From NCBI GenBank assembly GCA_018971945.1, contig JAGWZH010000009.1, forward strand, positions 1 through 53,690: a stretch of 53,690 nt of DNA. The letters run 5' to 3'. Within the stretch, counting starts at the first letter, position 1; each line of letters starts with the position of its first letter. The translations under genes and the position numbers were made by a program. Below are positions 26,514 to 36,346 of the stretch, one piece after another. The DNA comes from Alphaproteobacteria bacterium. GTDB taxonomy: Bacteria; Pseudomonadota; Alphaproteobacteria; Caulobacterales; Aquidulcibacteraceae. Under the pieces are notes generated by a model that had not been told where the DNA came from, did no database searches, and saw only the letters and a list, made by a program, of their open reading frames with translations.

Positions 26514-26843
26514 GCCCCTTCCAGGCAAAGCTGCAGGCCCGCGGCGGGCCCGCAGCGAAAGAGCAGGCAAGACCCGATCGCTAAAAGGAAGGGGCAAGCC
26601 TCCGCCTCCCAGCGAGCAGGAACGGGTTGGAGCAGGCGAAGGCCGCAAAGCCTCGACGGAGCGCGGCGCCCCTGGATAGGTCGGCGCGTCGGGTCTGGGC
26701 GGCGGCCGCCGCCCAGGGCCTCCGACTGCGGGATAGTGGGATTGTGACAGTCCTGTAAGCGCCCACTACGATGAGTTTAGTTGCCGCAGCGAGACCGAAT
26801 TTTCCGACAAAGCGAGCGGCGATCACCTGTCAGCGGGGACGCC
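26514..26843. other. 330-bp intergenic region with a perfect 22-bp palindrome
   Basis: No gene is seen here. At 26695-26716 two 11-nt arms (CTGGGCGGCGG and its exact complement) meet with no spacer. No T-run follows, so a standard intrinsic terminator is not supported, although a folded 3' end of the sulfatase transcript is possible. A GC-rich imperfect repeat also lies at about 26535-26560. The 3' part must hold the promoter of the cyclase gene, but no clear -35/-10 pair is visible. Confidence 0.5.
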
Positions 26844-27659
26844 ATGCCGCTCTTTATGGATCGACATGACCTTGAGGGCGCGACGGCCTTAGGCGTCGGC
26901 CATGCCCATGCCCAGGATCTGGCGATCCAAGGCAAGCACGGCGTCGTGTTTCACACCTATTGGTTCGACGCCAAAGCCCGCACGGCCTGTTGCCTCATCG
27001 AAGCGCCGGACGCTGAGAGCGTGATCAAGGCCCACAGCGAATCGCATGGCCTGACGCCAGCGGAGATCATCCAGGTCGACGCCGCCCTTGTGGAGGGCTT
27101 TCTCGGTCGCTTGAGCGATCCGCAGTCGGTGGTGCACAGCTCCAAGCCGATTGATGAACCGGCGGTGCGGGTTGTCATGTTCACCGATATCGTCGGTTCA
27201 ACCGACATGACTGCGGACCTCGGCGACGATCATGCGCTTCGCCTGGTCCGCGCCCATGACGGCGTCGTGAGGTGGTCCTTGTCGGCTGCGGGCGGGCGCG
27301 AGGTCAAACATCTGGGCGACGGCATGATGGCCTCCTTCGCCGACCCCGCGGCGGCGGTGCGCAGCGCCTGCGAGATCCAGCGTCGCATCGCCGGCTTCAA
27401 CAAGGATAATGCGGAGTCCTTGTTTGTGCGCATCGGCTTGCATCTGGGCGAGCCGGTTCGCGAGAACAACGACCTGTTCGGAGCGACGGTGCAGCTGGCT
27501 GCCCGCATTTGCAACGACGCCGCCGTCGATGCGGTGGTGATTTCCGCGGAGCTGAAAGAGGCAATTGGCGATGCCTTTGTGGTGGTCTCTTTGGGCCGCC
27601 GCATGTTGAAAGGCTTCAAGGCCCCCGTGCGGCTCTTCGCTGTGGACTGGTTGGTCTGA
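26844..27659 (+). CDS. DUF4242 - class III adenylate/guanylate cyclase fusion
   Basis: A 271-aa protein of two parts. Residues 1-80 match the DUF4242 (SCO4226-like nickel-binding) ferredoxin-like fold: MPLFMDRHDLEGATA, then a YWFDAKARTACCLIEAP strand pair. Residues from about 100 to 265 are a class III nucleotide cyclase domain: MFTDIVGSTDMTADLGDD supplies the first metal Asp, HLGDGMMASF the second, and LFGATVQLAARIC the C-terminal signature. No membrane segment is present. The start at 26844 is preferred because it begins the DUF4242 domain; upstream codons look random. It is likely to make cAMP in response to whatever DUF4242 binds. It is monocistronic. Confidence 0.85.
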   Translation: MPLFMDRHDLEGATALGVGHAHAQDLAIQGKHGVVFHTYWFDAKARTACCLIEAPDAESVIKAHSESHGLTPAEIIQVDAALVEGFLGRLSDPQSVVHSSKPIDEPAVRVVMFTDIVGSTDMTADLGDDHALRLVRAHDGVVRWSLSAAGGREVKHLGDGMMASFADPAAAVRSACEIQRRIAGFNKDNAESLFVRIGLHLGEPVRENNDLFGATVQLAARICNDAAVDAVVISAELKEAIGDAFVVVSLGRRMLKGFKAPVRLFAVDWLV

Positions 27660-32608: not shown

Positions 32609-33306
32609 ATGAGCCGTGAGACCCAGCGGCTGCGTCACGATTGGCTATGTTCCTATCTCACCTCGATTCTGACGCGGGACCTGCGTGACATCGCCGACAT
32701 CGAAAAATGAGCGAGTTGCCGAAATTCGAGCGACCTCTGGCTGAGCACTCAGGACGGTTGGTCAACCAGTCGCAGTTTGCCGGCGGGATCGACGTCACAC
32801 ACTAGACAGGGCAGCGCTGTGAAGATTTTCTCGAACAGATCTTTCTGATGGGAGCCCTTTAGCCCTGGTTCACCAATGTGCTGAAACGCATCACCAAGAC
32901 GCCCAAACTGCACATCCTCGATTCAGGCCTATTGGCGACTGCGCGAGGGCTTGCTTTTGAGCGAGTGCGGGTTGATCGGGGCGCCTTCGGCGCCCTTCTC
33001 GAAAGTTTCGTCCTCTCGGAAGTTCTGAAGCGCATGGGCGCCTCACATCTGCGACTGTCTCCTTATCACTTCTGCGATCGGGATAAGCATGAGGTCGACA
33101 TCGTGTTGGAACACGATGAAGGCATGCTTTTCCGAATCGAAGTCAAAGCAAGCGCCACTGTGAAGGCTGCTGATATCGGGGGGCTGCAGGCTTTTGCCGA
33201 AGCCTGCGGAGAAGGGTTCGCATTCGGCGTCGTCCTTTCCGACAGCACCGATCTGGTAGCGTTCGGCGACAGGCTGGCGGCGGCGTCCCTGTCGAGCCGT
33301 TGGAGC
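32609..33306 (+). pseudogene. Decayed DUF4143-type AAA+ ATPase gene
   Basis: The C-terminal two thirds of the AAA ATPase/DUF4143 family can be read across disruptions. Frame one (32609-32710) gives WLCSYLTSILTRDLRDIADIEK and then a stop. A shift then gives SELPKFERPLAEHSGRLVNQ, followed by two in-frame stops (near 32804 and 32861). PWFTNVLKRITKTPKLHILDSGLLATARG, the LLESFVLSEVLKR helix and KHEVDIVLE...IEVKAS (nuclease-like end) follow. The N-terminal Walker ATPase half is missing. The open frame continues to 33591 past the expected end, but that extension is not family-like. It is not functional. Confidence 0.8.
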
Positions 33307-33734
33307 GCGGACGCGCCAACAAAAAATCGAGTGAGGCAGCGTCGCACGGTTCTGTATGAGAGGTTTTGCGACGCCACGAGGAAAAGAACGAACCGAAGCA
33401 CGACTGGACCGATGTTGAGAAGGACCGCGGACGCCGCCCTGCCGCTGTTATCCGCGGCTTCGCCTCCCCAGTCGCTGTTGGACGATTTCGTGCGATCAAT
33501 GAGTGAGGAGCTAGCCCAGTCTCGAGCTTTCTCGGTCCACAAGACGGTGCACCAAAAACCTGCCAAACGGTGGACCGGAAGTGATTTTTAGGCGCATCAG
33601 TGTCAGAAAAAATTGAATAACAATATGGATTTTGGCCCCGTGACCCGCGTCACAGCGACGGGGTTAAGGTGGGGGTAGGTTCTCTTCATCGAAACGCGGC
33701 AAGCGAAGCGCCGCTGCCATGATGGAGAGACCAG
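33307..33734. other. Region between the ATPase relic and the micropeptides
   Basis: The frame running to 33591 is Arg/Ser-rich and looks non-coding. An AT-rich stretch at about 33594-33632 contrasts with its surroundings and is the likely promoter region for the two small genes downstream. A small palindrome GTGAC-CCGC-GTCAC at 33640-33653 could be a regulator site. No other gene is seen. Confidence 0.4.
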
Positions 33735-33836
33735 ATGACCGCCGCCACCCGCATAGCCGCCTTTGTCGCCGCCTTCGTCGCCTACGTCATTGTCGCGATG
33801 CCGGTGTTGAACCAAGCCAGCCAAATCGTCGCCTGA
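33735..33836 (+). CDS. Micropeptide 1, 33 aa, single hydrophobic helix
   Basis: A short frame with ATG preceded by GGAGAG at 8-nt spacing. The product is a basic N-terminus (MTAATR), a hydrophobic helix of about 20 residues rich in Ala, Val and Phe, then PVLNQASQIVA. It looks like a small membrane peptide or a signal peptide with a very short mature tail. Its tail pattern P-x-L-x-QA-x-x-I-V is shared with the next small gene 30 nt downstream, so the two appear to be tandem paralogues. I know no function for it. Confidence 0.55.
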   Translation: MTAATRIAAFVAAFVAYVIVAMPVLNQASQIVA

Positions 33837-33866
33837 ACAATCCACCTCGTTTTTTGGAGCCGACCC

Positions 33867-33965
33867 ATGACCGCTCTTCGCACCTCCAGCTTCCTCTTCG
33901 CCTTGGCTTTGACCGCCACTGTGGCAGCCCCCATTCTCACCCAAGCCGCCCGGATCGTGGGGTAG
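33867..33965 (+). CDS. Micropeptide 2, 32 aa, paralogue of micropeptide 1
   Basis: A short frame with GGAG eight to nine nt before the ATG. The product opens MTALRTS, has a hydrophobic helix (FLFALALTATVAA), and ends PILTQAARIVG. The end matches the PVLNQASQIVA end of micropeptide 1 position by position. Same size, same layout, own ribosome-binding site and a shared downstream terminator argue that both are real, translated genes. Function unknown; candidates are secreted or membrane-acting small peptides. Confidence 0.55.
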   Translation: MTALRTSSFLFALALTATVAAPILTQAARIVG

Positions 33966-34031
33966 GTGAGCTTCCCCCGCACGGCGGCCGGATCCGAGCC
34001 AAGCGCTTGTTTGTTCGATTGTTTGTGAGTG

Positions 34032-34060
34032 GACGCGCGGAGATCCCTCCGCGCGTCTTT
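34032..34060 (+). terminator. Intrinsic terminator after the micropeptides
   Basis: GACGCGCGGAG and CTCCGCGCGTC form a perfect 11-bp stem with loop ATCC, followed by TTTCGT. It lies 67 nt after the second micropeptide stop and should end their transcript. Confidence 0.75.
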
Positions 34061-35110: not shown

Positions 35111-36346
35111 ATGTCGACGATGGATCTTTGGAAGGGCGCACCTGGAATGCTCGGCAGCAGCGGACTACTGCGTCTCATGCTGGCGTTCTTTGCGATCGCG
35201 ATATTTGCGTTTCTTCATTTTGGACCGTCCGAACAAGACTGGAGAGAGAGATACCAAGCTCTCGGTGTTGAAGCCATGGATTGGCCAGGCGCCGACGCAC
35301 GCAACATACAGCAAGCCGCCTATTGTCTCGACCAACGTCCCGACGCCAATCTGGCCGAATGCGTCGCTTCATCGAGCCTGGTTCGGCAGCATTACCCGAA
35401 CGCGGAAGTGCCGCCTCTGAATTATCCGTCGATCTGGGTTCGGATTTATGCCGTCATCGGCGACCATAGCGAGGCTTTCTTTCGCGACTTCATCAACATG
35501 AACGCACTCGCGGTAGCGGCGACGATCGTCCTTATCTCGCTAAGGTTTCAATCCATTGCCTGCCTTTCCTTTCTCTTCTGCCCGATCTTGAGTCTCCTCG
35601 TCGAACGTGGGAACGTTGACGGGTTGACGTTCGCTGTGCTGTTCGCGCCAATCTTGCTCGCGTCCGCGCCGGGCTTCGCCGCGTTCGTTATCGGCATGGC
35701 CACCGGCCTAAAGGTGTTTCCAATTTTCTCCTTTGTTTCGGTTCTGAGGGATGCCGGCCCTGGGCACTATCTCGCCGTGGCTGTTGGGGCTGCAGTCTCC
35801 GCGCCCCTTATGATCGGCGCCCTCTATGAAATCCCAACTTATGTCGGAAACACGCTCTATGGTTTCGGGTGGGCTTACGGCCTGCCCACGCTCGGCTTGG
35901 TATCCACGTTGGGCGAGGGAATTCGGCTTTTGCCGTATGCGCTATCGAGCCTGTTGGTCATGGCTGCGGCGGCCCTGTCCATCGTCTTGTCGAACCGGGA
36001 AAGCTTCACCGACTTCTTCCCGCAGGCGCTCTCCAGAAGCGAGCGCCTCGTGCTCTTATGCTCACTCGCGATCTTTTGCGGGACGTTCTTACTATTGGGG
36101 AATTGGGTCTATCGGCTGGTTTTTCTCATCCCGGCCTTCGCGATCCTGGCGAGGCAACGTTTTTGGATCTCCCGCTTATTCTGCGCGAACCTCCTTACAG
36201 TGATGTGGATGCCTCTTCTTCCGCACGCATGGTTCCTACTGAATGTCGCATGCTATCCGCTCTTCATCTTCTCAGCCTTCATGATCATCGTGATCTTATA
36301 CAAAGAATTTCCCCTATTCGCGCGCCACAAGGCGGCGCCGTCGTAG
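35111..36346 (+). CDS. GT87-like polytopic membrane protein (probable glycosyltransferase)
   Basis: A 411-aa integral membrane protein with about 8-10 helices. The segment ERGNVDGLTFAVLFAPILL followed by GMATGLKVFPIF matches the GT87 (polyprenol-phosphate-mannose-dependent mannosyltransferase, DUF2029) pattern with the Asn-x-Asp and Lys-x-x-Pro signatures. A large extracytoplasmic loop (about 40-125) follows the first helix. A second ATG at 35120 has better spacing from GAGGG and may be the true start. It could add mannose or another sugar to a lipid or glycan at the membrane. It is not in an operon with the genes on either side. Confidence 0.65.
   Translation: MSTMDLWKGAPGMLGSSGLLRLMLAFFAIAIFAFLHFGPSEQDWRERYQALGVEAMDWPGADARNIQQAAYCLDQRPDANLAECVASSSLVRQHYPNAEVPPLNYPSIWVRIYAVIGDHSEAFFRDFINMNALAVAATIVLISLRFQSIACLSFLFCPILSLLVERGNVDGLTFAVLFAPILLASAPGFAAFVIGMATGLKVFPIFSFVSVLRDAGPGHYLAVAVGAAVSAPLMIGALYEIPTYVGNTLYGFGWAYGLPTLGLVSTLGEGIRLLPYALSSLLVMAAAALSIVLSNRESFTDFFPQALSRSERLVLLCSLAIFCGTFLLLGNWVYRLVFLIPAFAILARQRFWISRLFCANLLTVMWMPLLPHAWFLLNVACYPLFIFSAFMIIVILYKEFPLFARHKAAPS

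Follow-up and report, generated by a model that had tools for sequence, protein, structure and literature searches.

The window analysed here, a stretch of 53,690 nucleotides that constitutes contig C226 of genome G000 (3.4 Mb in 233 contigs), carries two adjacent short reading frames on its forward strand. ORF1 (33735..33836, 33 aa, MTAATRIAAFVAAFVAYVIVAMPVLNQASQIVA) and ORF2 (33867..33965, 32 aa, MTALRTSSFLFALALTATVAAPILTQAARIVG) are preceded by the Shine-Dalgarno sequences GGAGAG (33724-33729) and GGAG (33856-33859), respectively, and in both peptides an early arginine is followed by one hydrophobic stretch and by P-x-L-x-QA-x-x-I-V. An intrinsic terminator (34032..34060, +) closes the unit, its arms GACGCGCGGAG (34032-34042) and CTCCGCGCGTC (34047-34057) forming an 11-bp stem with the loop ATCC ahead of the T run TTT. 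These elements agree with a sequence-only reading of the region, which had described two frames of 33 and 32 codons with a Shine-Dalgarno sequence each, a shared layout of basic start, hydrophobic helix and common tail, and an 11-bp-stem terminator behind the pair. On the 5' side lies an operator-like palindrome of the CRP type, CGTGACCCGCGTCACA (33639..33654, +; consensus TGTGAC-N4-GTCACA), and exactly 21 nt 3' of it a -10-like hexamer, TAGGTT (33676..33681, +). With +1 predicted from this hexamer at 33688, the palindrome centre at 33646.5 falls at -41.5 and the predicted 5' leader comprises 47 nt (33688..33734, +), with a stem formed by GCGGC (33696-33700) and GCCGC (33710-33714).

The sequence-only reading had also placed the pair in a degraded region, which holds for the surroundings in part but not for the pair, which is intact. 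The neighbouring ORF at 32878..33591 (+), outside the unit, looks truncated, because its match to the DUF4143 model PF13635 covers positions 71-160 alone of 160 and thus the C-terminal part of such a protein, and the 411-aa ORF at 35111-36346 gave no Pfam match. About 6 kb 5' of the pair, positions 26781-27659 (+) encode a nucleotidyl cyclase domain of class III (PF00211, E 5.4e-11).

A search of G000 with ORF1 retrieved relatives on contig C154 (85% identity) and twice on C79. The C154 relative is a twin pair as well, its ORF1 being 85% identical in protein to ORF1 of the window, and a profile search gave six family members at four places of this genome, namely one pair each on C226 and C154 and two unpaired genes on C79. 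A further weak candidate, LSKEKSMRMVNTVSFKLSAFAAAVLITLTAFAPVLVVAARIAI, is situated about 550 bp 3' of a family member on C79 (L007:4449-4580, E 0.84). Within the window's own taxonomic family, which we take to be the GTDB group around Terricaulis and Vitreimonas, members were present in 36 of 60 genomes (profile, E <= 0.1). Extension to the order with a better profile (E <= 0.001) yielded 36 of 348 genomes, all within this same family and belonging to five genera, while at the level of the class 4 of 385 genomes matched, the window's own and three weak ones. The three weak matches (E 4e-4 to 7e-4) lay inside open frames of 214-423 aa and were rejected as chance among 385 genomes. When 84,980 species were scanned for NQA[AS]QIVA, 44 matches at 43 loci were confirmed, labelled Hyphomonadaceae, Terricaulis, Caulobacterales, Caulobacteraceae or Alphaproteobacteria MAGs. 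Full copy counts reached 24 in G052, 13 in G032 and 10 in G031. All 24 copies of G052 lie between 2.15 and 4.16 Mb of its 4.18-Mb chromosome, a positional bias of a type that was not present in G031 and G032. A plasmid location of the family was looked for without a match.

For comparative work, 68 distinct loci were drawn from the best matches per genome rather than from every copy; loci that did not differ over 130 bases around the first ORF's end were merged, and ORFs were called from ATG or GTG starts only, with lengths of 26-48 aa. Tandem pairs made up 48 of these loci and single genes 20. The profile was extended step by step with the hits it had itself returned, and the promoter-only search described below served as an independent check. 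The window peptides matched no Pfam, NCBIfam or PHROGs family at cut-off, ORF1 matched no PDB chain, and 30 family members scanned against Pfam and NCBIfam gave none at cut-off (the best, with E 0.012, remained below it). Nothing on such a micropeptide family was found among open-licence PMC papers. Six members in the same genome, the twin pair on C154, relatives in 36 genomes and a common promoter box place the pair beyond chance and indicate that these are real genes. From its distribution in the searched genomes, the family is evidently a lineage-specific, many-copy one, within a branch of the Hyphomonadaceae that has been little studied.

The make-up of the peptides was assessed on 108 representatives with a Shine-Dalgarno-supported start. 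Their length is exactly 30 aa in 77 cases and their net charge +1 in 94; an aspartate or glutamate occurs in a single peptide, and 107 reach a 19-residue mean hydropathy of at least 1.6. AlphaFold2, run on ORF1 of the window with 11 relatives, predicted one helix spanning residues 3-32 (mean pLDDT 92.4), a model that does not prove membrane insertion. A conserved helix face was not found (p 0.14 for all columns, 0.31 for the core), so that oligomerisation is not supported.

Selection was analysed on the 106 of 116 cores that share the tail register, 10 being dropped. The median dN/dS was 0.39 over 5130 pairs, and the pooled pN/pS was 0.53 for core pairs with pS of 0.05-0.65. In comparison with its partner on C154, ORF1 of the window showed pS 0.30 and pN 0.07; the corresponding values for ORF2, pS 0.50 and pN 0.38, mean that ORF2 is far less constrained than ORF1. 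Numbered back from the final alanine of the tail (0), near-invariant residues are Q at -6, A at -5, I at -2, V at -1, A at 0 and A at -12, and several third codon positions vary. The tail QAxxIVA is not universal, since in genus g9 its Q is replaced by other residues. The substitution pattern indicates that the peptides are under purifying selection and that, g9 excepted, their C-terminal QAxxIVA is nearly invariant. The sequence-only reading had taken the twin arrangement as a sign of selection on the peptide and not of chance, to be judged by homologues in relatives and by the kind of nucleotide change; homologues with conserved frames were found, most loci are tandem and change is mainly synonymous, all of which sustains it.

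The main finding is the promoter, which lies 5' of the coordinates covered by the sequence-only reading; that reading had noted neither the conserved promoter nor the multi-locus family and the likely regulator. In G000, GTGACNNNNGTCACAGCG stands 5' of all four family places, and its four exact matches genome-wide are all at family loci. The palindrome TGTGAC-N4-GTCACA, called when at least 9 of 12 positions matched, is present at 66 of the 68 loci, the two others being without a box, and in 63 of the 66 a TAnnnT hexamer follows exactly 21 nt 3' of it (offset 20: none; offset 22: one). If this hexamer is the -10 element, the palindrome is centred at -41.5, where CRP-type activators sit at class II promoters, and the layout as a whole is the one expected of a class II CRP-type promoter. 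A search pattern consisting of palindrome, spacing and hexamer, which holds no peptide information, gave 169 matches in the 60 family genomes versus 5 for the reversed control; it was found in 33 of 36 peptide-bearing genomes and in 4 of the 24 others. In G000, G031, G032 and G052, 23 of 27 promoter matches stand before a peptide that the profile had detected on its own. The remaining ones precede a 95-aa protein and a CARDB-type exported protein in G052, and a 154-aa protein and a 25-aa ORF in G032. As the same promoter thus stands before the 95-aa protein, CARDB-type exported proteins and the 154-aa protein, the regulon is not peptide-only. In G012 and G013, the pattern also led to micropeptides of 30-37 aa that are more diverged.

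Further occurrences of this promoter were noted. At L226-L229 (G052, G030, G043 and G051) the same layout, together with a very conserved leader, precedes the conserved 95-aa protein, which has one hydrophobic stretch and matched no Pfam family at cut-off. At L186, L187 and L262 (G018 and G022), in a genus without peptides, it stands before a SCO4226-like protein of about 100 aa (PF14026, E 2.3e-14 for the G018 copy). On account of this peptide-free genus, this type of promoter may predate the peptides. At two loci, L158:1504-3678 (G013:C5) and L248:568-3132 (G032), an IS is inserted exactly at the micropeptide operator, and the 14 bp duplicated on its two sides are the palindrome GTGACNNNNGTCAC itself. 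The G013 element encodes a transposase with an IS1595/ISXO2-like domain and the G032 element has matching ends; an IS element may use the CRP-type operator as a target.

Which regulator could act on this site? G000 encodes two clear Crp/Fnr proteins. The one on C181 combines a cNMP_binding domain (E 9.5e-19) with HTH_Crp_2 (E 1.3e-11) and has the recognition helix SREKVNR, which we take to be of the CRP-type RE..R kind, while the helix of the second one on C94, LETVSR, is presumably FNR-like. With its cNMP domain and RE..R helix, the C181 protein has the domain composition predicted for a CRP-type regulator encoded in the same genome. Orthologues of it (E < 1e-45) occur in 35 of the 60 family genomes, that is, in 33 of 36 peptide-bearing versus 2 of 24 other genomes (Fisher p 4e-11, a value inflated by common descent); two further matches at 27% identity (G021 and G022) were left out of the count. 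At the genus level, an orthologue is present in 5 of 5 peptide genera versus 1 of 9 others (p 0.003). In genus g13, 2 of 3 genomes encode the regulator but no peptides, and no orthologue was detected in three peptide-bearing genomes, G010, G044 and G049, whose completeness is 83, 79 and 91%, respectively. In 6 of 14 neighbourhoods (G023, G032, G039, G031, G042 and G033) the regulator gene adjoins a box-plus-peptide unit or lies at most about 2.6 kb from it, and in 3 of 14 (G023, G013 and G011) it adjoins a nucleotidyl cyclase-like ORF, identified through PF00211 in G023 and G013 and recognised from its sequence in G011. Cyclase domains were present in 5 of 5 genomes searched, which is consistent with cyclic-nucleotide control.

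Leader lengths across the loci range from 30 to 54 nt, and the mean folding z of 60 distinct 30-nt leader starts was -1.86. A stem was found in 56 leaders and starts at their first or second nucleotide in 37 of them. The arms vary while pairing is kept, as in TCGAAGCG/CGCTTCGA, TCGGGGCG/CGCCCCGA, CCGAAGCG/CGCTTCGG, ATCGC/GCGAT and GCGGC/GCCGC; because the MAFFT alignment of the leaders was poor in the hairpin, stems were read leader by leader, and the paired changes are taken from this reading and not from a formal test of covariation. The stem in the window leader is weaker than those of the relatives, has a 9-nt loop and was missed under the loop limit of the stem search, and the whole window mRNA folds no better than its shuffles (z 0.26). 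As 5'-terminal stems slow mRNA decay, we infer that the leader hairpin may stabilise the message.

At the other end of the transcript, many terminators of genus g14 (L020-L043) carry a TGCTCCC loop complementary to GGAGCA of their own Shine-Dalgarno sequence. Among the 52 of 66 loci that have an acceptable terminator and were tested, 26 carry a GCTCC-type loop able to pair with the Shine-Dalgarno sequence of the same locus, in g14, and loop and Shine-Dalgarno sequence are associated in a 2x2 table (21/8 vs 5/18, p 6e-4). Long-range pairing between the two was rejected, as cis combinations did no better than Shine-Dalgarno sequences swapped between loci (328 of 1000) and the pairing is absent in the window. 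Terminator loops differ across genera and are not conserved.

From the family, its selection, the operator with its spacing and the co-occurrence with the regulator, all of them computed, we arrive at a reading that we consider probable: a cAMP-CRP-like activator drives transcription of many short messages for bitopic inner-membrane peptides that act as effectors. A cAMP-CRP-type activator would bind TGTGAC-N4-GTCACA at -41.5 and recruit RNA polymerase to a promoter devoid of a -35 element, i.e. by class II activation. The resulting short mRNA would carry a stem-loop at or near +1 and its own terminator at the end, and its translation would yield one or two peptides some 30 residues long. Each of these would be inserted in the inner membrane as a single helix, with the N terminus inside in keeping with the K/R near the start and the conserved QAxxIVA tail at the periplasmic face. 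As many loci have a common operator, one signal would raise the dose of many near-identical peptides together, and these, as membrane effectors, may adjust the envelope or a membrane complex when cAMP rises. Regulation is well supported at the level of sequence; the choice of a membrane effector role is, we think, a matter of judgement.

The nature of the product can be read in other ways. The first 20 or so residues could be a signal peptide cut by signal peptidase I after A-x-A, in which case a mature 10-12-mer ending in NQAAQIVA would be freed to the periplasm or the outside, for example as a signal. An A-x-A-like site is correctly placed at the signal-peptidase position in 87 of the 108 peptides; this is a raw count, and such sites would often be expected in peptides as alanine-rich as these. 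The site is preceded by a proline and a large residue, which fit signal-peptide c-regions, and the least variable positions fall within the last seven residues (QAxxIVA). Yet the other 21 peptides are without an A-x-A-like site, the position of the proline varies between genera and 20-odd dispersed copies of nearly one signal seem needless, and we regard export as unlikely. We think it quite unlikely that the peptides resemble type I toxins, small helices that depolarise the membrane and are restrained at the RNA level. They are like membrane type I toxins in size, hydrophobicity, positive charge and their dispersed multi-copy and tandem layout, they conform to the pattern of a small hydrophobic peptide with one predicted helix, and the GCTCC loops of the g14 terminators can pair with their own Shine-Dalgarno sequence. 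This reading is weakened by the missing signal for an antisense promoter: in a consensus scan, antisense promoter scores were below those of shuffled sequences with scattered positions, and the window had none. The loop pairing counts against it as well, being no better in cis than after swapping and absent in the window, and so does the activator-type promoter that the family loci share, since a common promoter of this kind is not typical of toxins.

The RNA itself could be the product, a regulatory RNA with an anti-Shine-Dalgarno loop in which the reading frames are secondary. The 5' hairpin with its paired changes and the C-rich terminator loops of g14 would suit such an RNA; against this, variation at third positions goes along with conserved frames, peptide length and tail, and the loops are not conserved across genera, which makes an RNA product highly improbable. 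A last alternative concerns the palindrome, which might be a repressor operator or the site of a regulator other than the CRP-type protein of C181, and the second Crp/Fnr protein encoded on C94 of G000 is a candidate for the latter. We judge this very unlikely, given that a site at -41.5 without a -35 element, the half-site TGTGA and the RE..R helix fit a CRP-type activator, that FNR-type sites differ (TTGAT-N4-ATCAA), and that co-occurrence favours the C181 protein.

The proposed CRP-type control of membrane peptides has counterparts among known systems. Class II CRP-dependent promoters such as E. coli gal P1 have TGTGA-N6-TCACA at -41.5 and a -10 element but no -35 element; the predicted promoters share the position of the palindrome, the -10 element and the missing -35 element and differ in that the layout is repeated at many loci, mostly micropeptide genes. 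AcrZ, MgrB and CydX, each about 30-50 aa long, span the inner membrane with a single helix, associate with a larger membrane complex and are usually encoded in single copy. The peptides described here, predicted single-helix membrane peptides of about 30 aa, are similar in kind, whereas they are present in many copies. Membrane type I toxins comprise several members and are multi-copy, and with them the family shares the short hydrophobic cationic helix and the dispersed or tandem members; it differs in the lack of an antisense RNA signal, in one shared activator-type operator and in the C-terminal QAxxIVA. In PMC8309996, IbsC, LdrD, TisB, Hok, Fst and AapA1 are described as short hydrophobic cationic helices of fewer than 60 aa. 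AzuCR and VcdRP are dual-function RNAs under CRP control. For VcdRP of Vibrio cholerae, PMC8672173 describes the 29-aa VcdP, which is CRP-repressed and raises citrate synthase activity, and for AzuCR of E. coli, likewise CRP-repressed, it describes AzuC as raising GlpD activity, so that in both the small protein tunes a metabolic enzyme (PMC8672173). Likeness lies in a small protein of similar size, a short mRNA and control by CRP, direct there and predicted here, and the difference is that CRP represses there whereas activation is predicted here. Moreover, up to 24 copies per genome occur here, and sequence relation, compared via profile libraries alone, gave no family. The counterpart of a base-pairing segment would be the Shine-Dalgarno-complementary terminator loop, seen in g14 only and no better in cis than swapped. 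AzuCR and VcdRP come closest in logic and membrane type I toxins closest in peptide make-up, and the locus is not counted among either.

Most micropeptide candidates come without a regulatory handle; here, the uniform promoter lets a regulator be named, and the promoter alone can locate micropeptide genes too diverged for the profile. No description of a cyclic-nucleotide-controlled micropeptide regulon of this kind was found among open-licence PMC papers. It is possible, and we put it forward tentatively, that in this hyphomonadacean branch the CRP-type regulator is now largely the master switch for a private fleet of paralogous 30-residue membrane peptides, all made from separate mini-transcripts that share one class II promoter layout and 5' hairpin. 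The fleet would have expanded to two dozen copies per genome, and its QAxxIVA tail would hold a novel activity in the membrane or in signalling. If true, a cyclic-nucleotide regulon would have paralogous tiny membrane peptides as its main output, the membrane response would be scaled by gene number, and a gene family undescribed in the libraries searched would be given a testable function.
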